34,845 bases of DNA. Source: Candidatus Siliceabacter maunaloa. GTDB lineage: Bacteria; Actinomycetota; Thermoleophilia; Solirubrobacterales; Solirubrobacteraceae. The notes under the pieces are model-generated. The model saw nothing but the letters and a program-made list of their open reading frames with translations, had not been told where the DNA came from and searched no databases. Below are positions 4,215-22,760 of the stretch, piece by piece (position 1 is the first letter of the stretch; each line of letters starts with the position of its first letter). The stretch covers positions 1-34,845 of the forward strand of contig JANDLV010000040.1 in NCBI GenBank assembly GCA_024330185.1, in the 5' to 3' direction. The translations under genes were made by a program, and so were the position numbers.

Positions 4215-4450
4215 GCAACGAAGAGATCGCGCGCTGGAACTCCCGCGCCCCGCTGCGACTGGCGACCATCGGCACCCAGCGCACCGACGCGGTCTGCGTC
4301 GACATCGAGCTCACCGACGGCCACGGCCACCGAGCGGTGGTGGCGGTCTGGGCGACCACCGTGGGCGAGGCGGTGATGAACGCCGAGGCCTGCTGCGACG
4401 AGCACCTGGGCGGCGAATGGGTCCTGAACGACTGGAAGGGCCTGCGATGA
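4211..4450 (+). CDS. Unknown 79-aa protein in the ArdC operon
   Basis: Function unknown. The ATG overlaps the previous stop and its own TGA overlaps the next ATG, so it is the middle gene of a tightly coupled trio. The sequence LRLATIGTQRTDAVCVDIEL, followed by RAVVAVWATTVGEAV, suggests a compact alpha/beta fold, and the C-terminal EHLGGEWVLNDWKGLR is well formed. Small proteins of this kind often precede antirestriction genes on mobile elements, but no specific role can be assigned. Confidence 0.72.
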   Translation: MSNEEIARWNSRAPLRLATIGTQRTDAVCVDIELTDGHGHRAVVAVWATTVGEAVMNAEACCDEHLGGEWVLNDWKGLR

Positions 4451-5412
4451 GCCGCCCGACCCCGAGCGAGGCCGAGCGCCAGGCCCAGCGTGAGCGCAAG
4501 CGCGCCGAGGCCGAGGAGCTCCTCGACGAGCTGATGAGTCAGGAGGGCTGGCAGGCGTGGCTGCGCCTGCGCCGCGGCGTGCACGACTACTCGTGGACCA
4601 ACCAGGTCCTGCTGATCATGGGCGCCTTCAGGCAGGGCTTCGCGCCGTCGCTGGTCAAGCCCGCCTCGCGGTGGCGCCAGGACGGCTACCACCCCGCCAA
4701 GGGCACCCGCGCGCTGTACGTCTGGGCGCCCCACTCGCGGCTGCGCCGCGACGCCACGTGGGCCTGCTGCAGGGACACCCTGACCGCACGGCAGCGCACG
4801 TGCCCGAAGTGCGCACGCCAGCAGACCTACTTCCGCCTGCGCCCGGTCTTCGACACCAGCCAGGTGGCCAGCTTCGACACCGGCCAGGCACCCCCGACCG
4901 CCCCGCCGCAGGGCGAGCCGATCGGCGGCGACCAGCTGGGGTGGATGCTCGAGCCGCTGGCCCAGCACGCCGTCACGGCGGGCTGGGCGGCGTCGGTGTC
5001 CCTGACCGACGCCTCGACAGGCGGCGAGGGCGGCTGGTTCGATCACCGCTCGCGGCACCTGGCGGTCTGCGCCACCGACCCCGACGGCCAGCCGATCGCG
5101 CCCAACGCCCGCCTGCGGGTGCTGCTGCACGAGCTGGCCCACGCCCAGGGCATCGGCAGCCACGACGACCACCACGGACTCTCCTACGCCGAGGCCGAGG
5201 TCTGCGTGGAGTGCGTCAGCTACCTGGTCGCGGCCAGCGCCGGTCTCGATACCGCCGGGGAGGCCATCCCCTACCTGGCCGGCTGGGGCGGCGACCAGGC
5301 CCGCCAGACCGTGCGGCGCATGGCCGCCCTGATCGATGCCACGGCCAAGACGCTCGAGGAGCCGCTGCTGGCGCTGGCTGACCAGCGCCCCCAGGCCGCG
5401 CCGGCGCGCTGA
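4447..5412 (+). CDS. ArdC-like antirestriction protein (ssDNA-binding domain plus zinc metalloprotease)
   Basis: ArdC-type proteins are made by plasmids and ICEs on entry into a host and protect the incoming DNA from restriction. The 321-aa protein has the usual two halves. Residues about 20-145 match the ArdC N-terminal ssDNA-binding domain (YSWTNQVLLIMGA, then WAPH, then RLRPVFDTSQV). Residues about 160-320 hold a zincin with HELAH at 228-232 and downstream glutamates E251/E255. Oddly, C107, C108, C119 and C122 form a probable zinc knuckle inserted between the usual strand and the VFDTSQ strand. ATG 4447 overlaps the preceding stop. The family call is confident; antirestriction activity is inferred from the family. 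Confidence 0.85.
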   Translation: MSRPTPSEAERQAQRERKRAEAEELLDELMSQEGWQAWLRLRRGVHDYSWTNQVLLIMGAFRQGFAPSLVKPASRWRQDGYHPAKGTRALYVWAPHSRLRRDATWACCRDTLTARQRTCPKCARQQTYFRLRPVFDTSQVASFDTGQAPPTAPPQGEPIGGDQLGWMLEPLAQHAVTAGWAASVSLTDASTGGEGGWFDHRSRHLAVCATDPDGQPIAPNARLRVLLHELAHAQGIGSHDDHHGLSYAEAEVCVECVSYLVAASAGLDTAGEAIPYLAGWGGDQARQTVRRMAALIDATAKTLEEPLLALADQRPQAAPAR

Positions 5413-5440
5413 CGCGGCGCCCTCCCCCCGAGACCCACAC

Positions 5441-5481
5441 CGCCAGGCGCGCCCGCCCCCCCGGCGGGCGCGCGCCTGGCG
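5441..5481 (+). terminator. Very stable stem-loop between the ArdC-like gene and the methyltransferase-helicase
   Basis: The arms 5441-5457 (CGCCAGGCGCGCCCGCC) and 5463-5481 pair along their whole length apart from a 2-nt bulge, with a short C-rich loop. It sits 28 bp after the ArdC-like stop and ends 12 bp before the GAGAGGAGG of the next gene. It is the strongest hairpin of the region and could be a terminator, attenuator or processing site. No T-run follows. Confidence 0.5.
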
Positions 5482-5506
5482 ACCATCCCAACGAGAGGAG
5501 GTGCCC

Positions 5507-8500
5507 GTGGAGGGCACACACCGACCCCCCACCGCGCCCCAGGGCGACGGTGCCAAGCGCGCGCGCCTGGACGGCGGCGCGCTGACCGAGGAGACCGTGG
5601 CCTCCAGCGCCGCGGTCCTGCGCCGCGGCGCACGCCACAAGGGCCTGCAGCAGTACTTCTCCCCGCCCGAGGCCGCCCAGCTGGCCGCCCGCGTCATGGG
5701 CGGCGACACGCCCTACGGCCCGGCGGTCCTGGACCCCACCGCCGGCGACGGCGCGCTGCTGGCCGGCTGGCCGCCCCAGCGGCGCTTCGGCGTGGAGATC
5801 GACTCCGACCAGATCAAGGCCGGTGACTACACCGCCGTGCACGGCGACCTGCAGCGCGTCTACCCGCTGCTGCGCCTGGCCGGCGTGCGCGTGGGCGCGG
5901 TGGTCTGCAACCCGCCCTTCGGGCTGGACTGGCACGACGCCACCACTGACCAGCAGGCCAACTCCACCCTGCTGTGCCTGCGCTTCGCGCTGGGGCTCCT
6001 GGACGACCACGGCCAGGGGCTGCTGATCGCCGGGCGCGAGCGCTTTGCCCGCGAGCTCGCCGGGCGCCCCGAGGCCCACGGCGTCTACGCCACCGTGGAC
6101 TGCGACGACCTCTTCGATGGCGTGGCGCTGCCGTGCGTGCTGGCCTTCTTCGTGGCCCCGGCACAGCGCACCACCCGGGCCGCGCTGGCGGTGCAGGCCC
6201 CCCGCGCCCAGCTGGGCGACCTGGCCGACGAGGTCATCGCCGCCCGCGAGCAGCGCGCCAGCAGGGTGTCGGGCTTCTGCGCGCCCGACGAGATCGACCG
6301 CGTGCGCGGCGCGCTGACCACCGTGGGGCGCGAGCACGACCGCCGCCGCGCGGCCCGCACGCGGCGCCAGCGCCACGACGTCGAGCTGCGCGGCGAGCGG
6401 ATCGCCTGCCACCCCTCGGCCTTCGCCAAGCTGGCGCTGGCCGAGCGCGGCCAGCTGCGCGCGATCGAGGGGCTGGACGGCAAGTCGATCCGCTACTTCG
6501 GGCTCAACCTGCGCGACTGGCGCGCCCTGTCCGAGGCGGGCCAGGACGGCGCGCTGACGCTGGCCCCCGGCTTCGCGGCGGCCGTCGAGCGCGCGGTGGG
6601 CGACGCGGTGCGCGAGGCCACCCCGATGTATGCGGTGCGACCCCAGATGCGCCTGGGCTTCGTGGCCGATGTCGACCGCCTGCGCTGCCGGCGCGACGAC
6701 CCCACACGGGGCTTCCTGGCCGGTGAGCGCTACCCGCTGCGCTCGCGCACCAAGGTCGACCACGAACACGGCCAGAAGACCGTCGAGACCAAGCACGGCC
6801 CCGAGCTGTGCGACTACCGCCAGGAGCGCAAGCTGCTCGAGCTGACCGTGGGCGAGCACGTCTTCAACGAGTCACCCGAGGACATCGCCTACCTCATCGA
6901 GCACTTCGAGATTCCCGACCCCGGCGACGTGGGCAGCCGCTACCCCGAGCAGGTCCAGCGCGCACGGACCATGCTGGACCAGATCGCCGAGCGCCGGCAG
7001 TTCACGTGGCGACGCTTCCAGCGCGAGGACCTCGCCCGCCTGCTGGTCAAGGGCTCGGGCGTCCTGGGCCACGAGCAGGGCCTGGGCAAGACGCTGCAGC
7101 AGCTGGCCTTCGCCGAGGCCGCCCCGCGCCTGCACGGTTCCCAGCACTGCGCGCTGTTCGTCGTCCCCCAGGACCTCATCCCCCAGTGGCAGCGCGAGGC
7201 CCAGCGCTTCTTCGGGCGCACGCTGGAGCCGATCGGCGACCAGGGCGCGGCCAAGCGCGTGGCCGCCCGGTTGCGCCGCGGCGGCGGGGGCTGGTTCGTG
7301 ACGTGGTACGAGGCCCTCAGCCTGCGCGGGCGGCGCGACGAGGCGCTGCCGGTGGTGTCGGTGCTGCGCGACGGTGAGCGCCGCGCCGACGTCCCCGCGG
7401 ACAACGCGGCGCCCCTGACCTCCCTGGAGGTGTGCCCCGCCTGCCGCGAGCCGGCCGGCGAGCACTACCGCGACGGGATCTGCCGCGCCTGCGGCCACGT
7501 CCACCGCCGCCTGCGCGTGCCCACCGTCGCCTCGCTCCTCTCCACGGCCTTCGGGCGCGGAGTGATCTGCGTCGACGAGCTGTCGATGATCCGCGGCGAG
7601 GGCTCGCTGCGCTCCCACGCCATACGCGGGCTGCGCGCCCGCCACCCCCTGGGCGCCACGGGCACCCCGATCGCCAACTACGTCGACGACCTGTTTCCCG
7701 GCTTCTGGTGGGCGCTGGGCAACGCCAGCGCCCGCTGGCCCTACGACTACCACGGCCGCGCCAAGTTCCAGGCCGACCACTGCGTGATCGAGACCCAGAC
7801 GCACGAGCGCGACGACGGCACGGTCACCCAGCGGCGCAAGGTGCTGCCCGAGGTCACCAACCTCTCGGTGCTGTGGCGGCTGCTGTCGGGCGGGATGGTG
7901 CGCCGGCGCATGGAGGACACCGGCGAGGACCTCGTCGAGCTGCGCTACCACCCCACCCGGGTGCCCTTCGGCCAGCGCCAGCTCGAGCTCCACGAGCGCT
8001 GGCTGAAGGACTTCGAGCGCTTCTTCACCCAGACCCACCCCGACTCGCCGCTGGTCAAGGCCGGCGTGGTGCACCTGTTCTGCGCCGCGGTCGGCCAGCT
8101 TCCCAAGCTGGAGTACGCCGCCACCCTGCCCCAGTCAGACCCCGACCTGGAGTGGACGCAGATCGCGGCCTCCAACTGGACGCCCAAGACCCTCAAGGCC
8201 CTGGAGCTGTGCCTGGAGCGCGTGCGCGCCGGTGACAAGGTCCTCATCGGCTCGTGCCTGGTGGAGACGGGGCGCTTCCTGGCCCACCACCTGTGCCAGC
8301 GCGGCGTACGCGCCGTACACATCGTCGAAGAGCGCCAGGGCCGCGCCCAGACCAAGAACCCCGCCAAGCGCGCCGACGCCATTCGCGCGTTCATCGACGG
8401 CGACGCCCAGGTGCTGTGCGCCGGGGTGCAGGCCGTCAAGCTGGGCCACAACCTCGACACCGCCTCCAGCGTGATCCTCACCGGGCTGCCCTGGAGCTTC

Positions 8501-8920
8501 GAGGCCCTGGACCAGTTCATCAAGCGCGTGCGCCGCCTGACCAGCCGCCGGCCGGTCTCGGTGTACCCGCTGCTGACCCGCGGATCGCTGGACGAGCGCA
8601 AGTGGGACCTCCTGGACAAGAAGGGCGCGGCCAGCGACGTCGCCCTCGACGGCCAGCTCATGGCCCGTGCCGAGGAGCAGGTCGACTGGAACCGCGTCCT
8701 GCGCGAGATGCGCGCCGCCGGCGTCAGCGCCAGCGGCGACGAACTCGACGAGCGCGACCTGGCCGCGCTGTGGCAGCGCGCCGAGGGCCCCTACCGCCCG
8801 CTGGGTCCGCCCGCCGAGGCGGAGCTCGGCCTGGCCCAGCGCCTGGCCAGCCCCCACGCCGACGAGCCCGCCGTCGCCCCGGACGACGACGGCCAGCTCG
8901 CGCTCGACCTGGCCGCCTGA
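5507..8920 (+). CDS. DNA methyltransferase fused to an SNF2-like helicase
   Basis: A 1137-aa fusion. The N-terminal part is an adenine-type SAM-dependent methyltransferase: motif I DPTAGDGALL (76-85) and catalytic NPPF (135-138). The C-terminal part is a superfamily-2 helicase: GHEQGLGKT (about 521-529), Walker B DELS (about 690), motif III ATGTP, and a C-terminal RecA lobe with SSVILTGLPWSFEALDQF and KRVRR. A zinc ribbon (CPAC, later CRACG) is inserted near 643-665. No nuclease motif is visible, unlike single-chain Type ISP enzymes. GTG 5507 follows GAGAGGAGG; the longer upstream frame would cross the 5441-5481 hairpin. Such methylase-helicases on mobile elements are known as DNA-protection or anti-restriction factors. 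That role is inferred here. Confidence 0.85.
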   Translation: MEGTHRPPTAPQGDGAKRARLDGGALTEETVASSAAVLRRGARHKGLQQYFSPPEAAQLAARVMGGDTPYGPAVLDPTAGDGALLAGWPPQRRFGVEIDSDQIKAGDYTAVHGDLQRVYPLLRLAGVRVGAVVCNPPFGLDWHDATTDQQANSTLLCLRFALGLLDDHGQGLLIAGRERFARELAGRPEAHGVYATVDCDDLFDGVALPCVLAFFVAPAQRTTRAALAVQAPRAQLGDLADEVIAAREQRASRVSGFCAPDEIDRVRGALTTVGREHDRRRAARTRRQRHDVELRGERIACHPSAFAKLALAERGQLRAIEGLDGKSIRYFGLNLRDWRALSEAGQDGALTLAPGFAAAVERAVGDAVREATPMYAVRPQMRLGFVADVDRLRCRRDDPTRGFLAGERYPLRSRTKVDHEHGQKTVETKHGPELCDYRQERKLLELTVGEHVFNESPEDIAYLIEHFEIPDPGDVGSRYPEQVQRARTMLDQIAERRQFTWRRFQREDLARLLVKGSGVLGHEQGLGKTLQQLAFAEAAPRLHGSQHCALFVVPQDLIPQWQREAQRFFGRTLEPIGDQGAAKRVAARLRRGGGGWFVTWYEALSLRGRRDEALPVVSVLRDGERRADVPADNAAPLTSLEVCPACREPAGEHYRDGICRACGHVHRRLRVPTVASLLSTAFGRGVICVDELSMIRGEGSLRSHAIRGLRARHPLGATGTPIANYVDDLFPGFWWALGNASARWPYDYHGRAKFQADHCVIETQTHERDDGTVTQRRKVLPEVTNLSVLWRLLSGGMVRRRMEDTGEDLVELRYHPTRVPFGQRQLELHERWLKDFERFFTQTHPDSPLVKAGVVHLFCAAVGQLPKLEYAATLPQSDPDLEWTQIAASNWTPKTLKALELCLERVRAGDKVLIGSCLVETGRFLAHHLCQRGVRAVHIVEERQGRAQTKNPAKRADAIRAFIDGDAQVLCAGVQAVKLGHNLDTASSVILTGLPWSFEALDQFIKRVRRLTSRRPVSVYPLLTRGSLDERKWDLLDKKGAASDVALDGQLMARAEEQVDWNRVLREMRAAGVSASGDELDERDLAALWQRAEGPYRPLGPPAEAELGLAQRLASPHADEPAVAPDDDGQLALDLAA

Positions 8921-11419: not shown

Positions 11420-13246
11420 TCAGTCTCCCCCTGCCGCACCAAACAACCCTGCCTCTTCGAAGAGGTCGAGAATCTCCTCCGAGCCAGCATCGTCTACGTC
11501 GAGCACTTCGGGCGAGCTATCCGACCAGGTCGTCGTTCCTGTCGCGGCTGCACGGGCACCCGCGATCGACGCCCCATCTGCGACTGCCCTCAGGACGGCA
11601 ACGATCTCGCCATCGAGATCGTCAACCTCGAGGGCTCGCTGAATGTCTGGCATGCCAATGGTCACGTCGTGCTGGACGCGCAATCTCGCCGCGAGCCGGA
11701 GCAGGACCAGCCGACCGGGCACGAGCCGCAGTTGACCGTCGAGCGTTTGCCACTCGGCTTCGAAGCGACCCATCACGGAGCAATCGCGCGCTACCTCCGC
11801 CCGGAGACCCGAAAGGATTCGTCTGAGGTAGCCGGCGACGAGGGCGGCGGTCACCTCGCCCTTACCTGCGCGGGCGGCCGCGCGGCTGATCGCGTCCGGT
11901 GTCAAGAGGTAGTTGACGGTGGTCCGGCGTTTCCAAACGTGCAGATCAATGCCGTTGCGCGCCGCGTCGTCGCGGAGCCGCTCGACCTCGGCTTCCGTCG
12001 CGAGCCCCGGGGGCAGCAAACAGATCGCTTCGGTGCGCTCATCGCGCGTCGCATCGATCGCGCGCTTCATGGCCACCGCGAAGGGCCAGTCGTCCCAGGT
12101 GTCGATCGGAAAGCTCGGTAGGAGATCCAGCGGCTCGTCAGCGTCGGGGTTGACGAGGTCGTAGCAACGCTTGAGGAGGCGCACGTCGGCGCTTGGAGCA
12201 ATCAGGAAGCGATCGGCGCGAGTCAAGCGCGCAAACTCCAGGTTGTGCACGCCACCGACTTGCTCGACTACGCGCTGGACGTCTCGAAGGTCGCGTGCTC
12301 GGCGAGCGGAGCGCCGCGTCGAGTCGATGGGCAGGAGCTCATGTGGCTCGACCTCAGACATCATCTCGATCGAGTGGGTAGCCACGATGACCTGCTGTTC
12401 GCGCCTAAGCAGGAAGCGGATGAGACGCCGCTGGAGATCCGGGTGCATGTAGACGTCGGGCTCGTCAAGGACCACCGTTCCGTCGCCGGCGGACCTCGCC
12501 AGGAACCACATGAGTTGAAGCCACATCTGGAGTCCGTGGCCCATGCCTGCCGCCTCACCGACGAAGGGCCCGTCACGGAGGTAGAGCTCGAGATGCAGAT
12601 CCTCACCCAGCCCTGAAAGCTCGACCCCATCGATCCGAAGCGCAGGCCACGTCTGCTCCGCTATGGTCTTGAACACCTCGAAGTGATGGTCCAGCAGACG
12701 TAGCTGGTTGCGAAAGTGAGTTGGAGCGAGCGTGGAGTCAAGCGAACCCTTGACATACCTGTCCGCGAGCGGCCGCTCGTGACGCGCCAGCGGACCGACC
12801 TGCGGCTGGATGCCGATGCGGTCCAGCTCGAAGGATTTTGCTTCCCGCTTCGTCGTGACCTCGCCCCCGTCACCGTCACGAATGACAGCGAAGATCTCAG
12901 CGCCGGGCCCAACGTACAACCGCACTCGTCCGCCGCCGCTGAACGTCGCCTCCAGGATCGCCGGCGGTTCGGCGTAGTGATGGAAGGTCTCGCGTCCGAG
13001 GTCGAAGTCGAGTCCGCGGGTCGACGGCGAAACGCCGCGTGCCGCCTCCAGTCCCTCCAGCCACTCAGGGGGTGCCTCGAAGTTGAGGCTCCCGAACCGG
13101 TTGACCAGGATCGAGACGAGCCGGAGCGCCTCGATCACCGTTGACTTGCCCGCGTTGTTCGGCCCGACCAGGAGGTTGCGCTGAGCGAAGTCGACCTGAA
13201 AATTTTCGAACTTGCGGAAGTTCTCGATGCGCAGGGCGGTCAGCAT
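11420..13246 (-). CDS. OLD-like AAA ATPase with a degenerate TOPRIM-like half
   Basis: OLD-family proteins join an ABC/SMC-like ATPase to a TOPRIM nuclease and often act in phage defence. The 608-aa protein has Walker A GPNNAGKS (28-35), a signature region near AAGMGHGLQMWLQLM, Walker B VVLDEPD (258-264) and the H-loop ATHSIE (289-294). The second half keeps the layout of a TOPRIM domain, but its metal-binding acids look lost: FLIAPSAD (347-354) where VEG-x-x-D is usual, ICLLPPG (408-414) where a D-x-D strand is expected, and TTVNYLL (442-448) where E-NYLL is typical. It may therefore be a non-cleaving ATPase or sensor. It lies 120 bp behind the phosphorothioation-associated gene, so it may be a separate unit. 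Confidence 0.8.
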   Translation of the reverse strand: MLTALRIENFRKFENFQVDFAQRNLLVGPNNAGKSTVIEALRLVSILVNRFGSLNFEAPPEWLEGLEAARGVSPSTRGLDFDLGRETFHHYAEPPAILEATFSGGGRVRLYVGPGAEIFAVIRDGDGGEVTTKREAKSFELDRIGIQPQVGPLARHERPLADRYVKGSLDSTLAPTHFRNQLRLLDHHFEVFKTIAEQTWPALRIDGVELSGLGEDLHLELYLRDGPFVGEAAGMGHGLQMWLQLMWFLARSAGDGTVVLDEPDVYMHPDLQRRLIRFLLRREQQVIVATHSIEMMSEVEPHELLPIDSTRRSARRARDLRDVQRVVEQVGGVHNLEFARLTRADRFLIAPSADVRLLKRCYDLVNPDADEPLDLLPSFPIDTWDDWPFAVAMKRAIDATRDERTEAICLLPPGLATEAEVERLRDDAARNGIDLHVWKRRTTVNYLLTPDAISRAAARAGKGEVTAALVAGYLRRILSGLRAEVARDCSVMGRFEAEWQTLDGQLRLVPGRLVLLRLAARLRVQHDVTIGMPDIQRALEVDDLDGEIVAVLRAVADGASIAGARAAATGTTTWSDSSPEVLDVDDAGSEEILDLFEEAGLFGAAGGD

Positions 13247-13366
13247 CGGTACTCACCAGTCCACGATGCGCGGGCGCGTTCTCTCTTGTTCATTTGCGGT
13301 CACACAACGCGGCCAGTCGTGCTCCTGCGCAAGTCGGCGCTCCTTTCCGGGCACGGCGGAGGCTGG

Positions 13367-13816
13367 TCAGCGGGTGAGCTCGTCGACTACTGCATCGAAG
13401 TCGACGCCTGCGCCGTCGTCGGACCCCGCGTCGCGTTCGCGCTCTAGGACGATCGTCAGGAGGTTGTCGAGGTCGGGCTTGGTCTGCGCAAGCCGTGTCT
13501 GGAGGATGTCCAAGCCGCCATTCGCGAACTCCTCGAACACCGTAAGCCGCTCGTCGGACCTCTCGGCGCTGAGGATGGCGACGTCCTCGTGAACCGCAGC
13601 GGCGAGCATGTCGATGAACCCCTCGACGCCGAGCCGCTGGAAGACATCGAAGTCGATCTGCTCGCCCGAAGGGCCGAGCGGCTCACGGCGGCCCTCCGCG
13701 TAACCGAGTCCGGCGGCGAAGGTCAAGATCTCAGCCAGCGTTTCGAACGGTCCCTCGTCGCTGGCCAGGCGCTTCATCAGCGCCTCGTGCTGAGCTGGCC
13801 GGCGGACCCGCCTCAC
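13367..13816 (-). CDS. DNA phosphorothioation-associated protein 4-like
   Basis: A 149-aa protein whose opening (RRVRRPAQHEALMKRL, then GPFETLAEILTFAAGLGYAE, then GRREPLG) matches what I remember of the dnd-associated protein 4 family, found almost only beside dnd genes. No enzyme motif is visible, and the acidic C-terminus (DDGAGVDFDAVVDEL) may be a docking tail. Function is unknown in that family. GTG 13816 overlaps the stop of the upstream ATPase as GTGA, so it is the last gene of the coupled minus-strand effector series. A role as structural partner of the SMC-like ATPase is plausible but inferred. Confidence 0.75.
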   Translation of the reverse strand: MRRVRRPAQHEALMKRLASDEGPFETLAEILTFAAGLGYAEGRREPLGPSGEQIDFDVFQRLGVEGFIDMLAAAVHEDVAILSAERSDERLTVFEEFANGGLDILQTRLAQTKPDLDNLLTIVLERERDAGSDDGAGVDFDAVVDELTR

Positions 13817-15900
13817 GGGGTGGTCCTCACCGGGATCAGTTCGGCCCGCTCGCCTGCGGTCGACCGGCTGATGTACGGGTAGGCGCCCGATCGCAGCGTG
13901 ATCGTCTCCACCTCGAGGTCCTCCTTCGGGGTGTGGAAGTCGATGACGTACTCGCGACTGATGCGCGGACCCATCTGCTCCTGCACGGCGCCGAGCCCTT
14001 GGCTCTGTGAAACGAACACCACCACCTGCGGCGCCAGATGGGGAATCGCCTCGGCCACGCGCTGCTGGTAGTTGAGATCGAGGCTGCCGAATGGCGAATC
14101 CATCACGACGGGATAGACCCCGCCTTGGAACGTCAAGAGTCCGTCGCCGCCGTCTCGCTGGGCTTCGTCGTAGCGATCCCGTGCATGCTCGGCCAGAGCA
14201 CCCACGAAGGTCAGCGAGAGAATCTGGTTCTCGCCGGTGGATTTGGCGACCGACGCCGAGCGCTGGCCCTCCGCGTTGCGCAGGTCGAGGCGGAAGCTGG
14301 CGTCGAGCAGTGGAACGTAGGCCTTGAATGAGATCTTCGAGTAGAGGTCCTTGATGCGCCGATCGAGCTGCTCGCGCACCTCCTCGGTCCGCAGGTCCAA
14401 GATCTCTCGGAAGATGCTCGCGCCGCTCCGTGCCACGCTCACGCGTCGCCGAGCGATTTCCGCGCGTTCGTTCTCGGCTCGAGCCTTCTCCAGCTCGCGC
14501 TCAAGCGTTCGCTCGCGTTCGTCGAGACCTTCGATCTCGACTTCGGCCCGGGCGAGCAGGCGCTGCTGCTCGGTGATCGACGCGCCGATCCGCTCGCGTT
14601 GTTCCTCGAGCTCCTTGACCGTGTCGCTGTCGCCATGGCGAAGCGAGTCGGAGATCGCGCTGAGCTTGTCGACGATGCGCTTGCGTCCTTCGCGATGACG
14701 ACTGAGCTCCGCGAGCGTCTCGTGCAGGTACGAGTAGAGCTCCTTACGGCGCGTGAGCGTGCCTTCGGCCAACGCCGGAAGCCGCGTCCACGCCGCCTCA
14801 ACGTCGGCGTGAACGGCTCGCTCTCGCCACTCCGCCACAAGGCTGTACGGATCGGTGTCCGGCGTCAGCTCGCAGCCGCAGATGCAGCGACCGCGCTCGA
14901 GGAGATCCTCGACGAACTGGCGCTTGAGGTCAGAAGGGATCTCGCCGCGTTCGCGGCGCTCTTCGAAGACCGCGCTGGTCTGCTGCGCGAGGCCGGCGGC
15001 GAACGCGAGCCAGCCCTTGCGCGCGATGTGGTCGGAAAGCGATGTGCGTGAGGCGCGGATCGATTTCTCGGACTCCTCGAGGTCGCGCTCGAGCTCCTCG
15101 CGCTCGTGCTGCAGCGTGGCCGCTTCGGCGAGCTGCGCCAGCCGGTCACCAACGACCTGGCGTTCGTCCTCGAGCGCGGTCAGGTTGCGTCGATGCTGGG
15201 CGACCGTCTCGCGTCGTTCGTCGCGTTTGGTGCGCACCTGCGCCAGCTCGTCGGCGAGTGCTCGGTCCTCGTCGGTGCCGAGGTCCCGCAGCTCGCGCTC
15301 GAGATCCTTGCGCGCCTCGTCGGTGTGCTTGATCGCGTTCTCGACGACCTGCAGGCCGAGGATCCCCTTGATCGCCTGTTCGATCTCGGCGTAAGCGTCG
15401 GGCTTGACGAGCTGCTCGATTCGCTCGCCGTCGAAGAAGAAGAAGCGGTGCAACCGCTCCGGCAGCACCTCGTTAATCGTGCCGGCGCTCGTGTCGTCGC
15501 GGTTGTGATGCTCGCCGTCCTCGTCGATGAAGCCGACCGAAACAACGGCGTCCTTCACTCGTGACGCGGCGCCCTCGGTGTTCTTGCGATCGACGGTCGT
15601 GCGACGAACGGAGTAGCGGCGGCCCTCGTGCTCGAACTCCAGCGTGACCGTTGCTGCCACGTCGTCCCCCGGCTGTGCTTCAGCCCAAGCCTGTTCGTTG
15701 ATGAGGTGATCGGGCTGCTCGAACCCGGGGCTGCAGGCGCGGTACAGCGCCCAGGTGAAGGCATTGAGCAGCGAGGTCTTTCCGGCGCCGTTCGCGCCGT
15801 AGACCACTGTCACGTTCCGGTCCGGGCTAGTGGACAGCTCGAGCCGCTGGGTCCCGCGGAACTGTCGGAAGTTCTCCAGCTCGATCGCCGTGAGGATCAC
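13813..15900 (-). CDS. Second DndD-like SMC/Rad50-type ATPase with a cysteine hook
   Basis: A 695-aa SMC-like ATPase. Walker A GANGAGKT is at 35-42, and FFFFDGERIEQL (153-164) is the hallmark of DndD relatives. A long coiled coil (about 195-540) carries CICGC (339-343) at its apex, comparable to the zinc hook of Rad50. The C-terminal half has the signature STGENQILSL and Walker B YPVVMDSPFGSLD. It is distinct from dndD at 24271, which lacks the cysteines. GTG 15900 overlaps the 54-aa gene's stop as GTGA. By position it belongs to the effector arm with the PLD-helicase, perhaps as DNA-scanning or clamping motor. Calling it DndD itself would be wrong, since a proper dndD sits in the dndBCDE operon. 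Confidence 0.85.
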   Translation of the reverse strand: MILTAIELENFRQFRGTQRLELSTSPDRNVTVVYGANGAGKTSLLNAFTWALYRACSPGFEQPDHLINEQAWAEAQPGDDVAATVTLEFEHEGRRYSVRRTTVDRKNTEGAASRVKDAVVSVGFIDEDGEHHNRDDTSAGTINEVLPERLHRFFFFDGERIEQLVKPDAYAEIEQAIKGILGLQVVENAIKHTDEARKDLERELRDLGTDEDRALADELAQVRTKRDERRETVAQHRRNLTALEDERQVVGDRLAQLAEAATLQHEREELERDLEESEKSIRASRTSLSDHIARKGWLAFAAGLAQQTSAVFEERRERGEIPSDLKRQFVEDLLERGRCICGCELTPDTDPYSLVAEWRERAVHADVEAAWTRLPALAEGTLTRRKELYSYLHETLAELSRHREGRKRIVDKLSAISDSLRHGDSDTVKELEEQRERIGASITEQQRLLARAEVEIEGLDERERTLERELEKARAENERAEIARRRVSVARSGASIFREILDLRTEEVREQLDRRIKDLYSKISFKAYVPLLDASFRLDLRNAEGQRSASVAKSTGENQILSLTFVGALAEHARDRYDEAQRDGGDGLLTFQGGVYPVVMDSPFGSLDLNYQQRVAEAIPHLAPQVVVFVSQSQGLGAVQEQMGPRISREYVIDFHTPKEDLEVETITLRSGAYPYISRSTAGERAELIPVRTTP

Positions 15901-16061
15901 TTGACAGCCTCTCGGATCGCGGCGATGATCTGCTCCTTCACCCGCACGGGGCGGGAGTGGTACGCGTGCTCCTTCTCGATCCGAAAGATCGCTGCGATCG
16001 CCTTCTTCGTGTCCGGAGAAGCTTCGCGGATGAGTTGGGCGATCTGTTCCTTGGCGGTCAT
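15897..16061 (-). CDS. 54-aa unannotated protein between helicase and ATPase
   Basis: ATG 16061 overlaps the helicase stop as ATGA (16058-16061), and its TGA overlaps the ATPase GTG as GTGA (15897-15900), so it fills the gap exactly and is almost certainly translated. The product is helical and charged. It contains an internal repeat: KEQIAQLIREA (4-14) and KEQIIAAIREA (42-52), joined by a central stretch with TKKAIAAIFRIEKEHAY. Two like helices suggest a bridging or dimerising adaptor between its two large neighbours. I know no family for it. Confidence 0.82.
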   Translation of the reverse strand: MTAKEQIAQLIREASPDTKKAIAAIFRIEKEHAYHSRPVRVKEQIIAAIREAVK

Positions 16062-18154
16062 GTTCCGATGTGCAGGAGGTCGTACCGCGTTCGGAGCTCG
16101 CGCAGCTCGGCGAGCGCCTCGGGCCCGTTGACCGCCAATCCGGCGAACTCCATCACACGTTCGAGCTCTCGTGCCATCAACTTTCGCTCCGACGGGTCGA
16201 CGTTGTCGTCTCCGCTCGCAGGCGGCACGACGATGAAGTCATAGATCTCCGCGAGGTCCTTCCCTGGCGCGCGCCGGAGCACACGCCCGCGGCGCTGGAT
16301 GAACTGGCGCGGGTTGGTCGAGCTGGCGAGGATGTACGCGCGGCGCGTCTCGGGGATGTCGATGCCCTCATCGAGACATCTGATCGCGACCAGCGCGTTC
16401 AGCGAGCCGGACGCGAATCGCTCGCGCAGCACGTCTCGCTGGTCGACGTCAACATCGGCCGTGTAGCGGTTCACAGCCATGCCGAGGCCTTGACCAAGGC
16501 CGCGCACGACGGCCTCGACCTGTCGTTCGTCGTCGCCATCGTCAGCCTCCACGCGCCCGTCGCCGCAGTAGACGAGGTTGTGCGTCGACCGACGCTCCGG
16601 TTCGAGCAGTTCGAGCAGCCGCGGGATCTTCCCGCTCGCGGAGGCGATCAGCCGCGCGCGCCGGATCAGGAGCGCCATCAACATCTCATCGCCATCCGGA
16701 TCGTCGCCTGCGATCGCCATACGCAGCCCGATCCGCTCCGACAGCGCGAGGTACTGATCGAGTTCCTCGCCGTCGAATTCGATCACGATCGGCCGGTACC
16801 GATAGCGGGTCAGCGCGCCCATCTGGATGGCCTCTCCGAGCCCAAGCTCGAACACGGAGCTGCCGAAGTACCGCTGCAGGGCTGCCGTGCCCTCGGTGTC
16901 GTGATGGCGTTCCGGCGTCGCCGAGAGCCCAAGCCGGAACCTGAACCACGCCGGCAGCGCCCGACGAAGCGCCGGCGCTCCGAGGTTATGCATCTCGTCG
17001 GCGATGATCAGCGAAGCCTCGGGCAGCTCACGGATGAGGTCCTGGAACGCCAGCGTGGCGAACGTCGCGTTGGTCGCGATGGCCATGAGGGTTGGTCGCG
17101 CGCCCGCGCGCAGCTCGAGCAGCTGAGAACGCAGCTCGCTCTCCCAGTGGCTGCGACCCCGAAAGCAGCCGATCGGATCGAACGCGAACGCGTTCGCCTC
17201 GGCGATCCACTGCTTGACGAGATGCTGGTACGGACAGAGGACGACGATGGCGAGGCCCTCGTCCTGCTTTGCGCATTCTTCCGCAAGCCTGCCGGCGGTG
17301 CTCAGCGCTGTGATCGTCTTGCCGGACCCAGTCGCCATCTCGAACACACCGGTGCCGCGGGCACGGAACCATGCGGCCATCGCCTCGCGCTGGTACTCGC
17401 GGATCTGCAATCCGTCGGGGGTGGCGGGCCGTCGCGGTCCTCCGCCCGATCGCTGCGTCAGCCGTTCGGCGCGATCGGGGGTGTAGGTGTCGAGCAGCGT
17501 CTGCCTCGCTGCATCGGGGAGGTCGATGACCTCCAGGGTCGAGAGCTCCCGGTTCCACAGCGCGGCGAAGTCACGGTCGAGCTGATTGGCGACAAGCGCC
17601 TCGCTTGGCTTGGCGGTCGAGAACGCGAGGATGCTCTCGAAGTTGTTGACAAGGCCGCCGACGGATTCGTTGGCGCTGCCCTGGAACGCGACGTGAGTGC
17701 CGGCGTCGTCGCGGAATACGCCGATCTTCTCGTGGTAGATCCCCGGTGCCCCCGCCTTCGACAAGACCGCGACGCGCACTTCCAGACGCTCGTGGGCGAT
17801 CAGCCAGCTCAGGCAGCTGAGTGTGTCGCGGATCGGATCTGGGAGCGCGGCGCTGATCAGCTCGCGACGGAGCGCCTCGCCGACGATCTCGTCGCGCCGG
17901 TGGTAGCCGGCGAGCATGGCCTCGACGTCGGCCTCGGTCAGGTGCGGCGAGACGACGAGCCGCATCCGTCCTCCGTGGATCAGGAACGGCACCAAGGCGG
18001 GGGCGGCCAAGGCGAGCGCTCCGCTCGTGAAGTACCCGACAGCCCGGTCGTACTCAGTCGCGCGCTCCAGACAGGGCAGGTAGAAGTCCTCGACAAGATC
18101 GTCCTCGCCGGAGCGGTACCGCGTCCTCAAGAGGAGGTCTGCGAGGCCGCTCAC
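16058..18154 (-). CDS. PLD-nuclease/superfamily-2 helicase (Dnd-associated restriction enzyme type)
   Basis: A 698-aa protein. The N-terminal third is a phospholipase-D-type nuclease with one HKD-like motif: H141-E-K143 followed by GSAN (159-162). One motif per chain implies a dimer to form the active site. The helicase part has Walker A ATGSGKT (274-280), DEMH (386-389), LSATP (410-414) and QRRGRVLRR (620-628). This matches the helicase family annotated as DNA phosphorothioation system restriction enzyme, which co-occurs with dnd genes. GTG 18154 overlaps the upstream stop as GTGA; the frame opening at 18196 would overlap by 46 bp. It is the best candidate for the DNA-cutting effector. Restriction of unmodified DNA is inferred from the family. 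Confidence 0.87.
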   Translation of the reverse strand: MSGLADLLLRTRYRSGEDDLVEDFYLPCLERATEYDRAVGYFTSGALALAAPALVPFLIHGGRMRLVVSPHLTEADVEAMLAGYHRRDEIVGEALRRELISAALPDPIRDTLSCLSWLIAHERLEVRVAVLSKAGAPGIYHEKIGVFRDDAGTHVAFQGSANESVGGLVNNFESILAFSTAKPSEALVANQLDRDFAALWNRELSTLEVIDLPDAARQTLLDTYTPDRAERLTQRSGGGPRRPATPDGLQIREYQREAMAAWFRARGTGVFEMATGSGKTITALSTAGRLAEECAKQDEGLAIVVLCPYQHLVKQWIAEANAFAFDPIGCFRGRSHWESELRSQLLELRAGARPTLMAIATNATFATLAFQDLIRELPEASLIIADEMHNLGAPALRRALPAWFRFRLGLSATPERHHDTEGTAALQRYFGSSVFELGLGEAIQMGALTRYRYRPIVIEFDGEELDQYLALSERIGLRMAIAGDDPDGDEMLMALLIRRARLIASASGKIPRLLELLEPERRSTHNLVYCGDGRVEADDGDDERQVEAVVRGLGQGLGMAVNRYTADVDVDQRDVLRERFASGSLNALVAIRCLDEGIDIPETRRAYILASSTNPRQFIQRRGRVLRRAPGKDLAEIYDFIVVPPASGDDNVDPSERKLMARELERVMEFAGLAVNGPEALAELRELRTRYDLLHIGT

Positions 18155-20361
18155 TCGCCGAATCCCATGAGTTCCTCGAGCGCATCGTCGTCGCACGAGT
18201 CGTCAGGCGGCAGTTGCTGCGCGAGCTCGTCCTGACGGCGAGCCCGCAGCCGTGTGCGAAGGTCGTTGACCGAAGCTGTGGGGTCAAGGCCTATGGCCAC
18301 GGCGATGCGGTCGGGGCGGTCGTCTGAGTCGGCGATTCCGAGCTCGAGAGCGATCCGTCGAAGTCCAGTCGCCTCATCGACCGCGCTGCGCGCGACGGCG
18401 TGCGCCGACCCGCCGTCTTTCAAGGGCACGAACAGGTAGTCCCCCTCGGCGCACCCCAGAGCCTCGACGAGCGCGCGAGTCGATCCGAATGCCGGCTGTG
18501 TCGCCCGCCAACTGATCGCCGCGCTGCCGTTGACGAGCTCGATCGTGCGGGAGTCGCCTGGCCGCACTCCTGCGGCCTGCGCGATGGCCGAACGCGTGGG
18601 CCGCCCCGACCCGCGGAGCACGTCGCGGTCGATAACGAGTCTCACCGCCCAGGAGCCGTCCCACGCGACCAAATCGCGGTCGAGCTCAGCGGGCATGTGA
18701 GCCGCCTCGGTGGAGGCAGCGTCAGGGGGCGACACCAGCAGGGCGCCGTCGCTGTCGCGATGGAACCGCCGCGACGCGGCGTAGCTGCGAATCGACTGAG
18801 CGGACACGCCGAACAGCTCCACGAGCTCGTCGACGATTTCGTTGAGGTCGGCCCGTCCGCCCCTCCGTTCAATGGCCTGCCCGATCTCGTCGGCGATCGT
18901 CGTGTATTCCTCGCCGCCCCACGCAGCCAGGCCGTAGCGATTGAGCCCCAGTCGACGGAAGCGGTCGTCGGCCTGCACCGCGTTCACCATCGACCGAAAG
19001 TTGACGGTTTTGGAGCCCATCGCGGCGTGCAACTCTTCGCGGCTCATCGGCTCACCGTGGACTTGGAGCACCCGGCAAGCCTTGTCCTGCGGGCCCCCCA
19101 CCCAAACGAGGTACCGCTCGTCGAACTCGTGCAGCGGCAAGGCCACGCGAACCGCGTCTCGCGATGTCTCCACCACACCGGCCGATGCCAGCAGCTCGTA
19201 GACGTCTTCTGGGGTCAGCGGCTCGTCGACGCGATCGAGCAGAGTCGCCTTGAGGCTTTCCAGCGCATCGTTGCGTTGCCAGAACCCGCCCTTTGCGCGG
19301 TAGGGTCCGGCGAGCTCCCGCAGGACGGCGCGCCGAAGCTCCGCGTCGCCTGCGTCGTCGTCGACCTGCTCGGCGAGCGCCGCCTGCAGGGCCTTCTCGC
19401 TTGTGATCGTGCCGACGGATCGCCGCACTGCTGCGGCAGCGTGCTCGATCGGCGCGCACGAGTCGCCGACCGTGATGCGGCTCTCGATCTGATCCTTGAT
19501 GTGTCGCTCGATCTGCCGCACGCGCTCGCGCGTGACGTCGAGAGCGCGACCAAGCTCGTCGAGTGTGAGCTTCGCCGCCACCGGAAAGACACGGCCCGCA
19601 AGGATCCGCCGCTCCCGCTCGTCGAAGCGAAGGAGGTTCGCCCACGCCGCATCGGCCGTCTCACCGAGGCCAAGCATCGTCGGGATCGGCATGGCCGAAA
19701 GCCGCTGCCAAGCGTCACGTCCCACATCACTCGCCATCGCCAGCTCCAACGCCTCACCGATGTTCGTCGCGCCCTGCCGATAGGCGGCGCCAACGAGATC
19801 GCGCAGCGCGATGTACTGCTCGGGCGGCGACGTGGGCACAAGCGGCGGAGGTTCACGTGGGTGGATGAACTCGACCGAGGCATGGGCATCGGCGATCGGG
19901 GAGACGTCCGTAGCGGGGTCATGGGCTGCCCAGGCCGCCAACGCTCCGCGCACGATCTCTGTCACCACCTTGCGTCCGGCGTTCGGCCATGTCCCGAGGC
20001 GATCAGCGCTGTGATCGGCGAGGTCCACCCAGGTGTTCGCGGATTGGCGCTTGACCAGGTTCCACGCCCGCACGCTCTCCAGGAAATCCGCAGGCGACCC
20101 GCCGCGCACACCGTGTAGGCCAGGGAGAAGCTCGCCGAGCGGACGGGCGCACAGGTCAGGGCTCGACACGATCGTGGCGGCGGTTACGACGGCGACTGCT
20201 TGATCGGTCCCCAGGTATGGTGCGACGCCGTTCAGCCACCATGCCGGCGTCGCCGCGGACACGGCATCGGCTGAGTCGGGCGTCAGGCGCGAAAGCACAT
20301 CCGCCCGCCACCACGCGATCGCGTGTAGGCGATGCAGCAGGTCTCGGCCAGCGTCCGTCAC
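18151..20361 (-). CDS. Large protein with a sigma-70 region-4-like helix-turn-helix
   Basis: A 736-aa protein of unknown function. Residues about 245-292 (FDERERRILAGRVFPVAAKL, then TLDELGRALDVTRERVRQIE) are a clear sigma-70 region-4 HTH. No region 2 is visible, so it is not a normal sigma factor. The rest shows no catalytic motif; a segment near 365-440 looks winged-helix-like (EPLTPEDVYELLASAGVVET). It ends in an acidic tail (DDSCDDDALEELMGFGE). GTG 20361 has AGAGAG upstream. It lies 59 bp behind dndA and overlaps the helicase start. Position suggests a DNA-recognition subunit of the effector complex. A transcriptional regulator is the alternative. Confidence 0.75.
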   Translation of the reverse strand: MTDAGRDLLHRLHAIAWWRADVLSRLTPDSADAVSAATPAWWLNGVAPYLGTDQAVAVVTAATIVSSPDLCARPLGELLPGLHGVRGGSPADFLESVRAWNLVKRQSANTWVDLADHSADRLGTWPNAGRKVVTEIVRGALAAWAAHDPATDVSPIADAHASVEFIHPREPPPLVPTSPPEQYIALRDLVGAAYRQGATNIGEALELAMASDVGRDAWQRLSAMPIPTMLGLGETADAAWANLLRFDERERRILAGRVFPVAAKLTLDELGRALDVTRERVRQIERHIKDQIESRITVGDSCAPIEHAAAAVRRSVGTITSEKALQAALAEQVDDDAGDAELRRAVLRELAGPYRAKGGFWQRNDALESLKATLLDRVDEPLTPEDVYELLASAGVVETSRDAVRVALPLHEFDERYLVWVGGPQDKACRVLQVHGEPMSREELHAAMGSKTVNFRSMVNAVQADDRFRRLGLNRYGLAAWGGEEYTTIADEIGQAIERRGGRADLNEIVDELVELFGVSAQSIRSYAASRRFHRDSDGALLVSPPDAASTEAAHMPAELDRDLVAWDGSWAVRLVIDRDVLRGSGRPTRSAIAQAAGVRPGDSRTIELVNGSAAISWRATQPAFGSTRALVEALGCAEGDYLFVPLKDGGSAHAVARSAVDEATGLRRIALELGIADSDDRPDRIAVAIGLDPTASVNDLRTRLRARRQDELAQQLPPDDSCDDDALEELMGFGE

Positions 20362-20420: not shown

Positions 20421-21629
20421 TCAGCCCGTCAGCTGACCGATTCGCGCAGCGACCGAGCTCCAGTCCGGGTCCTCCGTGAGGTGGCACCACGACATTCGGA
20501 CCGCGCCGGCGATGCGCTGCTCGGCCAGTCCCATCGCCCGCAGCACGTGACTGGGCTCGTAGCGATGCGAGGTGCAGGCGCTGCCGTTCGAAACCGCAAT
20601 CAGATCCTTGGTCGCCACGATCACGGCTTCGGCGTCCGCGCCGGGGAACGACACGTTGAGGACATGCGACATCGCGCGCTGCTGGTCGCCGTTCACCACG
20701 GGTGCCAGCCGCTCAAGGGCGGCAAGCGCACGATCTCGGAACGCGCGGTTCGTCTCTATGCGCTCATCCTGCTCGGCAAGGGCAAGCCGCGCGGCGGCGC
20801 CGAGTCCCGCGATCAGGTGGACGGGGAGCGTTCCGGGGCGAAGCCCTCGTTCTTGGCCGCCTCCGAAAGCCAGCGGAGTGAGCGGCGGCCGTTCGAATCC
20901 GCGCCGTCGCGCGATCAAAGCGCCCACGCCCTTGGGGCCGTGCAGCTTGTGCGCGGAGACGCTGATCAGGTCGACGCGCGTGTGATGCGGCCCGGCGAGC
21001 TCCTTGCCGAAGCCCTGGGCTGCGTCGATGTGCAGGTAGGCCGGATGATCCCCGAGCCGTGCCGCCACGTCCTCGACTGGCTGGACCGTGCCGGTCTCGT
21101 TGTTGACGTGCATCACGGATACGAGGCCGGTGTCCTCGCGGAGCGCGTCGGCCACGGCGTCGGCCCGAATCAGCCCGGACTCGTCAGCGTCGAGCCACGT
21201 CACGTCAAAACCGTCGCGTTCGAGCTGCTCGATCGGCTCGATGACCGCCTTGTGCTCGAGCCGCGTGCTCACGACGTGGCGGTGACCGCTGGCCGACAGC
21301 GCGCCGCGCAGGCCCAGGATCGCCAGGTTGTTGCTCTCCGTCGCGCCGCTGGTGAACACGACCTCATCGGCCTCGACGTCGGCGACCGCGGCGACCTCTC
21401 GTCGTGCCGCGCCAACCCGTCGCTTTGCGGCGGCTCCATAATCGTGGGTGCGGCTCCCAGCGTTGCCGTACTCGTGATCGAGGAAGAAGCGCACCTCGTC
21501 GCGGATCTCGGGGAGTAGCGGCGTGGTCGCGCAGCAGTCGAGGTAGACCGGGCGCGCACTGCGCCCGTCCGCCGGATCGCGTACGTTTGTCAAATCATGA
21601 CGAACTCGGCGGTCGTGGATCACAAACAC
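20421..21629 (-). CDS. dndA: DndA cysteine desulfurase
   Basis: DndA is a PLP-dependent cysteine desulfurase that supplies persulfide sulfur for DNA phosphorothioation and helps build the Fe-S cluster of DndC. Visible features of the NifS/IscS-like fold are VYLDCCATTPLLP, the FTSGATESNN motif, the PLP lysine in SAHKLHGPKG (K228), and the catalytic cysteine in SNGSACTSHRYEPS (C352). The open frame begins at GTG 21629, overlapping dndB by 33 bp. TTG 21593 would remove 12 residues and the overlap and is at least as likely. Neither has a good ribosome binding site. It is divergent from dndB and leads the minus-strand effector genes. Confidence 0.93.
   Translation of the reverse strand: MFVIHDRRVRHDLTNVRDPADGRSARPVYLDCCATTPLLPEIRDEVRFFLDHEYGNAGSRTHDYGAAAKRRVGAARREVAAVADVEADEVVFTSGATESNNLAILGLRGALSASGHRHVVSTRLEHKAVIEPIEQLERDGFDVTWLDADESGLIRADAVADALREDTGLVSVMHVNNETGTVQPVEDVAARLGDHPAYLHIDAAQGFGKELAGPHHTRVDLISVSAHKLHGPKGVGALIARRRGFERPPLTPLAFGGGQERGLRPGTLPVHLIAGLGAAARLALAEQDERIETNRAFRDRALAALERLAPVVNGDQQRAMSHVLNVSFPGADAEAVIVATKDLIAVSNGSACTSHRYEPSHVLRAMGLAEQRIAGAVRMSWCHLTEDPDWSSVAARIGQLTG
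21585..21605. promoter_or_regulatory. Imperfect palindrome over the divergent dndA/dndB starts
   Basis: GTTTGTCA (21585-21592) and TGACGAAC (21598-21605) are inverted copies with one mismatch around 5 bp. The palindrome spans the dndB start codon (21597) and the possible dndA TTG start (21593). DndB is known as a repressor of dnd operons in other bacteria, so an operator here would be logical; that link is inference. No confident -10/-35 pair was found for either direction. Confidence 0.35.
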
Positions 21630-22760
21630 AATCTACCCGACCCTTCGGACCGGAGCGCGGCCGTCGGCGCCTTCGAGTACGTGTTCCCGGCAATCCGCGG
21701 CGTCCAGGCCGGCCGCGAGTTCTTCGTCTCGATGTGTCCGTTGCGGCTCATCCCGAAGGTCTTCCTGTTCGACGAGGACGAGCTGGTGCCGGAGCTTCGC
21801 GCGCAGCGTGTCCTCAACCGCGGGCGACTGCCTGAGATGGCGCGGTACATCGTCGATAACCCCGACTCCTACGTCTTCTCGGCGCTGACGGCGTCCATCG
21901 ACGGCGAGGTACGCTTCGAGGTGTCCGAACACGCGTCACACGCAGAGCGGATGGGCTTGCTGCGGGTGCCGATGACGGCGCGGTTCGTCATCAACGACGG
22001 GCAGCACCGCCGCGCAGCGATCGACTTGGCGCTGCACGAGCGGCCGGAGCTCGCCGACGAGAGCATCGCGATCGTGTTCTTCCTCGACGCCGGGCTTGAG
22101 CGCAGCCAGCAGATGTTCGCCGACCTCAACCGCTACGCCGTGCGCCCGTCCACGTCGATCGGGGTGCTCTACGACCATCGTGACGACCTGGCCGAGCTCA
22201 CGCGGGTCGTCGTGCTCAAGTCCCCGGTCTTTCGCGATCTGGTCGAGATGGAGCGCAGCACGCTGGCCAAGCGCTCACGCAAGCTCTTCACGCTGAGCGC
22301 GATCTACGGCGCGACCAAGATTCTCCTCGCCGGCCATCCCGGCGACTCCGACGAGCGAGAGGCGCTCGCACGCGCGTACTGGGAGGCGATCGCCGACGTG
22401 ATCCCCGACTGGCATGCGGTCCGAGCGCGCAAGCTCTCGGCGGGCGAGGTTCGCGGCGACTTCATCCACTCGCACGGCATTGCGCTTCAGGCTCTTGGGC
22501 GTGCCGGCCACGCACTCATCGAGTCCGGCGCAACACCGCAGACCTTCGGGGAGCGCCTCGCCCCGCTGCGTGAGCTCGATTGGTCTCGGTCTAACGCGGC
22601 CGTCTGGGAGGGCCGGGCGCTCATCGGCGGCAGGGTCTCGAAGGCGAGCCAGAACGTCGTGCTGACCACCAACGTCGTGCTCACCACACTCCAGCTTCCT
22701 CTCAACGACGAGCAGCAACAAGCCGAACACGCCCTACAGCGTGGAAGGGAGCGTCCGTGA
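21597..22760 (+). CDS. dndB: DndB, DGQHR-type regulator of phosphorothioation
   Basis: DndB is not required for sulfur insertion but influences modification and represses dnd transcription in studied systems. The 387-aa protein has the family hallmark INDGQHRRAAI (DGQHR at 134-138), preceded by FEYVFPAIRGVQAGREFFV near the N-terminus and followed by FADLNRYAVRPSTSIGVLYD. ATG 21597 has no clear ribosome binding site, so a leaderless transcript or a slightly later start such as a GTG near 21,615 is possible. Its TGA overlaps the dndC GTG as GTGA (22757-22760). Confidence 0.93.
   Translation: MTNSAVVDHKHNLPDPSDRSAAVGAFEYVFPAIRGVQAGREFFVSMCPLRLIPKVFLFDEDELVPELRAQRVLNRGRLPEMARYIVDNPDSYVFSALTASIDGEVRFEVSEHASHAERMGLLRVPMTARFVINDGQHRRAAIDLALHERPELADESIAIVFFLDAGLERSQQMFADLNRYAVRPSTSIGVLYDHRDDLAELTRVVVLKSPVFRDLVEMERSTLAKRSRKLFTLSAIYGATKILLAGHPGDSDEREALARAYWEAIADVIPDWHAVRARKLSAGEVRGDFIHSHGIALQALGRAGHALIESGATPQTFGERLAPLRELDWSRSNAAVWEGRALIGGRVSKASQNVVLTTNVVLTTLQLPLNDEQQQAEHALQRGRERP

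Follow-up and report, generated by a model that had tools for sequence, protein, structure and literature searches.

We describe here an OLD-like protein that has retained its ABC ATPase and lost the catalytic acids of its TOPRIM domain, encoded beside a complete Dnd–PbeABCD defence locus. The window, which is the whole 34,845-nucleotide stretch of DNA analysed, carries the gene at positions 11420-13246 of the minus strand. The family alignment and the structural model strongly support a catalytic loss, by which the protein would be a pseudonuclease, as an earlier sequence-only reading had suspected. With moderate confidence, we favour the explanation that it descends from a one-gene PARIS-like suicide effector and now serves Dnd–Pbe as an accessory, a sensor or adaptor driven by ATP.

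The gene (window:11420-13246:-) is an uninterrupted open reading frame of 608 codons, giving 608 residues from an ATG with zero internal stops, and its third-position GC is 0.73-0.83 across all parts. The sequence-only reading had its coordinates exactly right and had left the strand unstated. Pfam searches matched AAA_15 (8.7e-21) and AAA_21 (1e-20), and the best PADLOC matches were AriA (top, 8.8e-22), NsnB, PtuA, AriAB and GajA, which by sequence similarity would place the protein in the OLD/ABC-ATPase group of defence proteins. The gene is laid out as follows:

11420-13246, minus strand: OLD-like ATPase with a putatively dead TOPRIM domain, 608 aa (intact open reading frame; Pfam; PADLOC)
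12242-13246, minus strand: ABC-ATPase domain, residues 1-335, with 61 of 62 conserved family positions retained
13142-13165, minus strand: Walker A, GPNNAGKS, residues 28-35 (from sequence)
12527-12547, minus strand: signature-like loop, GMGHGLQ, residues 234-240; M235, G236, G238, L239 and Q240 are conserved family columns
12455-12475, minus strand: Walker B, VVLDEPD, residues 258-264, with the catalytic E262 retained (from sequence)
12371-12379, minus strand: H-loop, THS, residues 290-292 (from sequence)
11897-12241, minus strand: degenerate TOPRIM domain, residues 336-450, predicted fold kept (model; structural matches)
12185-12208, minus strand: TOPRIM motif 1 position, FLIAPSAD, residues 347-354 (family LLVEGKD); E351P and G352S, D354 kept
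12005-12025, minus strand: TOPRIM motif 2 position, ICLLPPG, residues 408-414 (family CILDSDY); D412P and D414G
11903-11929, minus strand: TOPRIM motif 3 position, RRTTVNYLL, residues 440-448 (family RKEIENYLL); K441R, E442T and E444V
11549-11896, minus strand: C-terminal helical region, residues 451-566, the family's most diverged part
11420-11548, minus strand: acidic C-terminal extension, residues 567-608 plus stop, with pLDDT 40-61 over most of it

Among the features that mark the OLD family, the ABC-type ATPase is present, and its Walker A, Walker B and H-loop can be read directly, in agreement with the sequence-only reading; the C-terminal TOPRIM fold is present in the model, as judged by strand-helix order, pLDDT and structural matches; the TOPRIM metal-binding acids (Glu, Asp-x-Asp, Glu) are absent. 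In a comparison of the full-length model with solved structures, the top match was PtuA of retron Ec78 (Z 22.5 over 296 residues). This comparison reached the ATPase alone, and the C-terminal part was therefore folded separately.

The loss that the sequence-only reading had seen in FLIAPSAD, ICLLPPG and TTVNYLL was borne out in a 71-sequence alignment, where 66 catalytically complete relatives define 82 columns of at least 90% conservation. Of these columns, the window protein keeps 61/62 in residues 1-335 versus 8/16 in residues 336-450 (Fisher p 4e-6). Eight conserved TOPRIM columns are lost (E351P, G352S, G383T, D412P, D414G, K441R, E442T and E444V) and eight are kept (D354, L358, P377, A428, L435, W438, N445 and Y446). 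All five catalytic acids (E351P, D412P, D414G, E442T, E444V) are among the replaced residues, and they are missing from none of the 66 complete relatives, which come from the best 80 of 296; the surrounding structural positions are kept. Motif 1 retains its second acid, D354, and apart from it the TOPRIM half contains no family-conserved acid. The TOPRIM and C-terminal regions show the lowest conservation among the 71 members, while the ATPase regions rank as ordinary. Judging from the alignment and the model, metal catalysis has very probably been lost. A search of the open-licence literature on inactive or degenerate TOPRIM domains returned nothing relevant. Sequencing error was considered and rejected, as it would have had to hit five separate acids and leave 61 of 62 ATPase positions untouched.

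The fold layout, which had been thought from the letters to persist, does so in the structure prediction. Folded alone, the C-terminal half reaches a pLDDT of 94.7; P351 directly follows the strand 346-350, P412 follows 406-411, and V444 lies in the helix after the strand 433-437, so that in the model the replaced residues appear to occupy the canonical strand-end places of a TOPRIM domain. The best solved match is AriB (8ux9_A, Z 10.7 over 203 residues), followed by the C-terminal regions of the Xcc and Bp (Xanthomonas/Burkholderia) OLD proteins (Z ~8) and then GajA (Z 6.3). The Foldseek E-values of the same model are weak (0.04 for AriB), and the resemblance to AriB is therefore one of fold and motif order and not of close kinship. 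When solved structures were searched with a sequence profile of the C-terminal part by itself, none proved to be a true relative. In active relatives the TOPRIM half matches the PADLOC AriAB (to 1.2e-12) and AriB (to 1.3e-07) profiles, and that of the window protein matches neither. The sequence-only reading had missed that this half is closest to PARIS AriB and that the protein resembles a one-gene AriAB. The aligned core of the family stops near residue 560, and the acidic tail of the window protein extends past it; this tail (residues 567-608), which ends in a helix predicted at low confidence (589-599), could be an interaction motif.

A single-protein scan of 84,980 species genomes returned no relative, and an alignment query built from the window protein and two distant relatives recovered 296 in the species-genome scan. 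The best 80 of these 296, on which our description of the family rests, form a coherent group of about 570-600 aa found in many phyla at 25-45% identity, and the C-terminal half of nearly every member shows VEGxD, DxD and KEIENYLL. In architecture they are OLD ABC-ATPases joined to a TOPRIM domain that comes closest to AriB of PARIS; further degenerate members may exist outside the best 80 of 296. Most of the relatives within this set are solitary genes. In the available flanks of the catalytically complete loci, many of them short, no Dnd, Pbe, Mza or BREX genes were detected, and four complete loci (L057, L077, L081 and L086) lie beside or inside type I restriction operons.

No close homolog was found in the order (232 genomes), class (399) or phylum (396) of the window's organism. 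Phage records contained no homolog and viral contigs distant homologs only, while the plasmid search returned two distant Cupriavidus copies with complete catalytic motifs. Among the searched genomes, phages, viral contigs and plasmids, there is no ortholog closer than ~42%. In a quick tree, the window protein falls among active members as one separate loss, on a branch of 1.66 versus a median of 0.42, and this length makes its exact place uncertain. The sequence-only reading had asked whether a family alignment would show the loss to be conserved. It is not a trait of an ortholog group, as a close ortholog was not found, and a parallel loss occurs elsewhere in the family. The same genome encodes a distant OLD-like relative on contig 35 (L011), with the motifs FLEG, FDRLE and REIENY and a doubtful second Asp.

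The gene lies on the same strand as the pbe operon, 120 bp downstream of pbeD, in the following neighbourhood:

13247-13366, minus strand: intergenic gap between pbeD and the OLD-like gene, 120 bp, with one weak terminator-like hairpin on the plus strand
13367-13816, minus strand: pbeD candidate, 149 aa, in the pbeD position, with size and order as in PMC6459918 and without a family match
13813-15900, minus strand: pbeC, CxC-type ABC-ATPase (PADLOC PbeC 4.7e-181)
15897-16061, minus strand: pbeB candidate, 54 aa, with 4-bp start/stop overlaps with both neighbours
16058-18196, minus strand: pbeA, PLD-like domain plus SF2 helicase (PADLOC PbeA 2e-234; ResIII 9.9e-18; PLDc_2 3.7e-05)
18151-20361, minus strand: 736-aa protein, flanked by pbeA and dndA (sigma-70 region 4 and RNA polymerase alpha-CTD-like matches)
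20421-21629, minus strand: dndA/sspA cysteine desulfurase (PADLOC)
21597-22760, plus strand: dndB (PF14072 1.4e-132)
22757-24274, plus strand: dndC (PADLOC DndC 2.7e-197)
24271-26256, plus strand: dndD (gene order; SMC_N/AAA_23 domains)
26253-26651, plus strand: dndE (PF08870 1.8e-35)

The pbeA-B-C-D operon is complete and oriented divergently from dndBCDE, and the immediate upstream neighbours of the OLD-like gene are pbeD and pbeC. The sequence-only reading had placed the gene next to a Dnd effector arm, 120 bp from its upstream neighbour. Both the adjacency and the gap (13247-13366) hold exactly, whereas the identity of the arm, PbeABCD, had escaped it. No sigma-70-like promoter was found within this gap. 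A copy of the gene is absent from L101, the one further Pbe locus that was read completely, and from all six PbeC-bearing plasmids (0/6), and therefore it is not an obligate part of Pbe. The 736-aa protein, which lies outside the described Pbe components, also weakly matches MzaA, which is the sigma-factor-like component of Mza.

Other genes of the window were noted in passing. An SSB gene at 239-700, an ArdC-N-like protein at 4417-5412 on the plus strand (below the Pfam cut-off, and overlapping the next gene) and an SNF2-helicase protein of 1194 aa at 5336-8920 on the plus strand, which weakly matches an N6-methylase, look like mobile-element DNA, possibly carrying its own anti-restriction gene. 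An rve-type transposase/integrase (29096-30106, plus strand) adjoins the dnd arm and is another sign of a mobile island.

A second lineage with altered catalytic residues was found in Bacteroidales. It comprises L060, L069, L070 and L087, with L068 as a near-identical copy of L069, and in the quick tree it forms a clade that branches within the active members, at a distance from the window protein; the two losses are therefore independent. The clade keeps 56-57 of the 62 conserved ATPase positions. In its TOPRIM domain, E351D is found in all members, D412 and/or D414 is changed in all, and K441N or E444D occurs in some. This lineage is less eroded than the window protein, and in L060, which is putatively dead, the changes are limited to E351D, D354S and D412N. 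Searches of the Bacteroidales order (393 genomes) and of genera (85 and 85) returned no new kind of dead member.

The dead Bacteroidales genes also adjoin multi-gene defence systems. L060 and L070 directly follow a C5-methylase–MzaB–MzaC–MzaD–MzaE operon, and L087 follows MzaD–MzaE at the start of the available stretch; the gap to MzaE is at most 40 bp, or the genes overlap. L068/L069 lies one gene downstream of brxP–brxC–pglZ–brxL, which from its gene content is probably a type-4 BREX. That stretch (1-17782 in L068 and L069, from water buffalo gut) reads as a BREX operon, a 204-aa protein, the dead OLD, a 451-aa gene, a NACHT protein and a 455-aa protein that belongs to a recurrent cluster, the whole being a compact defence island. 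The L070 and L068 proteins are 60% identical, yet their neighbouring systems differ, as expected of a portable accessory. Strong purifying selection acts on the dead TOPRIM domain of the one testable dead pair, L070/L087 (dN 0.10, dS 1.8, omega 0.056), although dS is near saturation and the ratio is rough; synonymous sites were saturated in most pairs tested, and the one active pair measurable at a similar distance, L017/L040, gave an omega of 0.057. The defence role that the sequence-only reading had thought likely is supported by the family, by the intact Dnd–Pbe neighbourhood and by this dead lineage beside Mza and BREX-4. Tallied by locus, the contrast with the complete members is extreme. 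With two independent losses and short flanks at many complete loci, the link between catalytic loss and multi-gene defence neighbours is a lead and not a statistical result.

We then propose how the protein could work. Its ATPase would still dimerise on ATP and shift shape upon a trigger, like the ATPases of OLD and PARIS. Candidates for the trigger are the DNA of a phage or plasmid and an anti-restriction protein. Having lost the ability to cut, the TOPRIM half would relay this shape change as an interaction surface. The beneficiary would be the neighbouring Dnd–Pbe, in which PbeA itself carries a helicase and a PLD-like nuclease-fold domain, and a one-gene PARIS-like suicide effector would thereby have been converted into a sensor or adaptor of a modification-based defence. 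The role of sensor, adaptor or inhibitor that the sequence-only reading had suggested is plausible. We infer the trigger, and likewise that the protein works together with Dnd–Pbe. Reuse of the dead half as a switch or adaptor is suggested because the separately dead relatives also adjoin multi-gene defence systems. A role as sensor or adaptor is further favoured by the selective loss in TOPRIM, the kept fold, the lack of obvious decay and the parallel loss in Bacteroidales, and there are precedents: E. coli YbjD without its TOPRIM domain retains its anti-phage phenotype (PMC13261556), the cell-cycle role of archaeal Cran1 is ATPase-dependent and not nuclease-dependent (PMC12796447), and AriA senses Ocr. 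We count against it the long branch without an ortholog closer than ~42%, the 120-bp gap that allows separate transcription, the absence from L101 and the PbeC-bearing plasmids, the occurrence of two losses only, with short flanks and four complete loci by type I restriction–modification genes, and the lesser erosion of the Bacteroidales lineage, where L060 is putatively dead.

Two rivals are serious, and we think neither of them likely. The protein could be a pure decoy or sponge, whose ATPase binds Ocr-like DNA mimics and keeps them off Dnd–Pbe with no signalling. For AriA, recognition of Ocr and Arn is based on charge (PMC11455837), and the dead members adjoin systems that such anti-restriction proteins could target; however, a decoy leaves unexplained why a dead TOPRIM fold is retained, under constraint in the tested pair. 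Alternatively, it could be a stand-alone ATPase effector that never needed its TOPRIM half and merely adjoins Dnd–Pbe. The YbjD phenotype that survives TOPRIM removal, the solitary state of most relatives and the 120-bp gap all speak for such an effector, whereas the dead members of the parallel lineage always adjoin multi-gene systems, with gaps of at most 40 bp or an overlap with MzaE, and the TOPRIM half is conserved as a fold.

Early decay, in which the TOPRIM half drifts and the gene is being lost, is distinctly improbable. It would fit the long branch, the lack of close orthologs among those searched and a TOPRIM and C-terminal identity that is the lowest among 71 members, but not an intact reading frame with coding-like third-position GC in each part, nearly all conserved ATPase positions kept and a C-terminal half confidently predicted to fold. 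We consider it very unlikely that the protein is still a nuclease with a metal site rearranged from other acids of the TOPRIM half, such as D354, E406 and E418. D354 is kept and other acids are present in the domain, but the canonical positions are all changed, two of them to proline, no family-conserved acid except D354 remains, and the AriB profile matches vanish. Least probable of all is a negative regulator that forms mixed oligomers with active OLD-like proteins and restrains them: OLD and AriA proteins do oligomerise (PMC10568477, PMC11455837), but L011, the one further family-like gene detected in the genome, is distant (E 1.5e-36 versus 2.6e-221 in the same profile search).

In most of the literature, OLD and PARIS proteins are regarded as nucleases gated by an ATPase. 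If true, a gate that was kept while the blade was lost, at least twice and beside systems with effectors of their own, would separate sensing from killing, and it would offer a candidate sensor for Dnd–Pbe, whose activation is poorly understood. It would also provide a natural test of recent reports in which the OLD TOPRIM half is dispensable or otherwise used. A broader idea, which we regard as possible and rather doubtful, is that AriAB-like OLD proteins with a dead nuclease form a module that recurs: a PARIS-like suicide guard would lose its blade on recruitment to a modification-based system and then act as the trigger sensor or anti-restriction decoy of that system; with the same reserve, this module might span Dnd–Pbe here and Mza and type-4 BREX in Bacteroidales. 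Dead OLD/PARIS proteins that recur beside multi-gene defence, and are constrained in one tested pair, merit bench work.

Among known systems, the locus resembles Dnd–PbeABCD in holding a full dndBCDE, dndA and the pbeA-B-C-D operon within the window, a cassette described in PMC6459918 and re-annotated in PMC10853773, and differs from it in the OLD-like gene, which is absent from the Pbe components described in these two reports. Gabija GajA, a class 2 OLD, shares the OLD ATPase, the TOPRIM domain and, at the lower Z given above, the fold; in the window, by contrast, no GajB-type helicase partner adjoins the gene, the nearest helicases being pbeA (SF2) and the gene at 5336-8920 (SNF2), and the nuclease acids are lost. 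The class 1 OLD proteins (T. scotoductus OLD, P2 Old and E. coli YbjD) are likewise single genes with an N-terminal ABC ATPase and a C-terminal TOPRIM domain, and among solved structures T. scotoductus OLD gives the best match by sequence, its motif 1 aligning with the family profile; the acids are kept there, and the window protein differs further in adjoining a multi-gene defence system. The accessible part of a report on BREX describes loci that recruit OLD-TOPRIM modules as backup effectors (PMC12839542), which likewise sets OLD ATPases with TOPRIM nucleases beside a modification-based defence; that part presents them as active and reports no dead TOPRIM halves.

In PARIS, the ATPase AriA forms a scaffold; it detects anti-restriction proteins, Ocr among them, and sets AriB free (PMC11455837). 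AriB is a two-metal TOPRIM tRNase (PMC12409363). The window protein differs from this system in being one polypeptide with five acids gone and a Dnd–Pbe neighbour; its matches to PARIS profiles fall far short of full length, and its TOPRIM half matches neither the AriB nor the AriAB profile. It has the same two domains as AriAB, which occurs as two proteins or as a single-gene fusion; AriA is its top PADLOC match and AriB the top structural match of its TOPRIM half, and its active relatives match both the AriAB and the AriB profiles.
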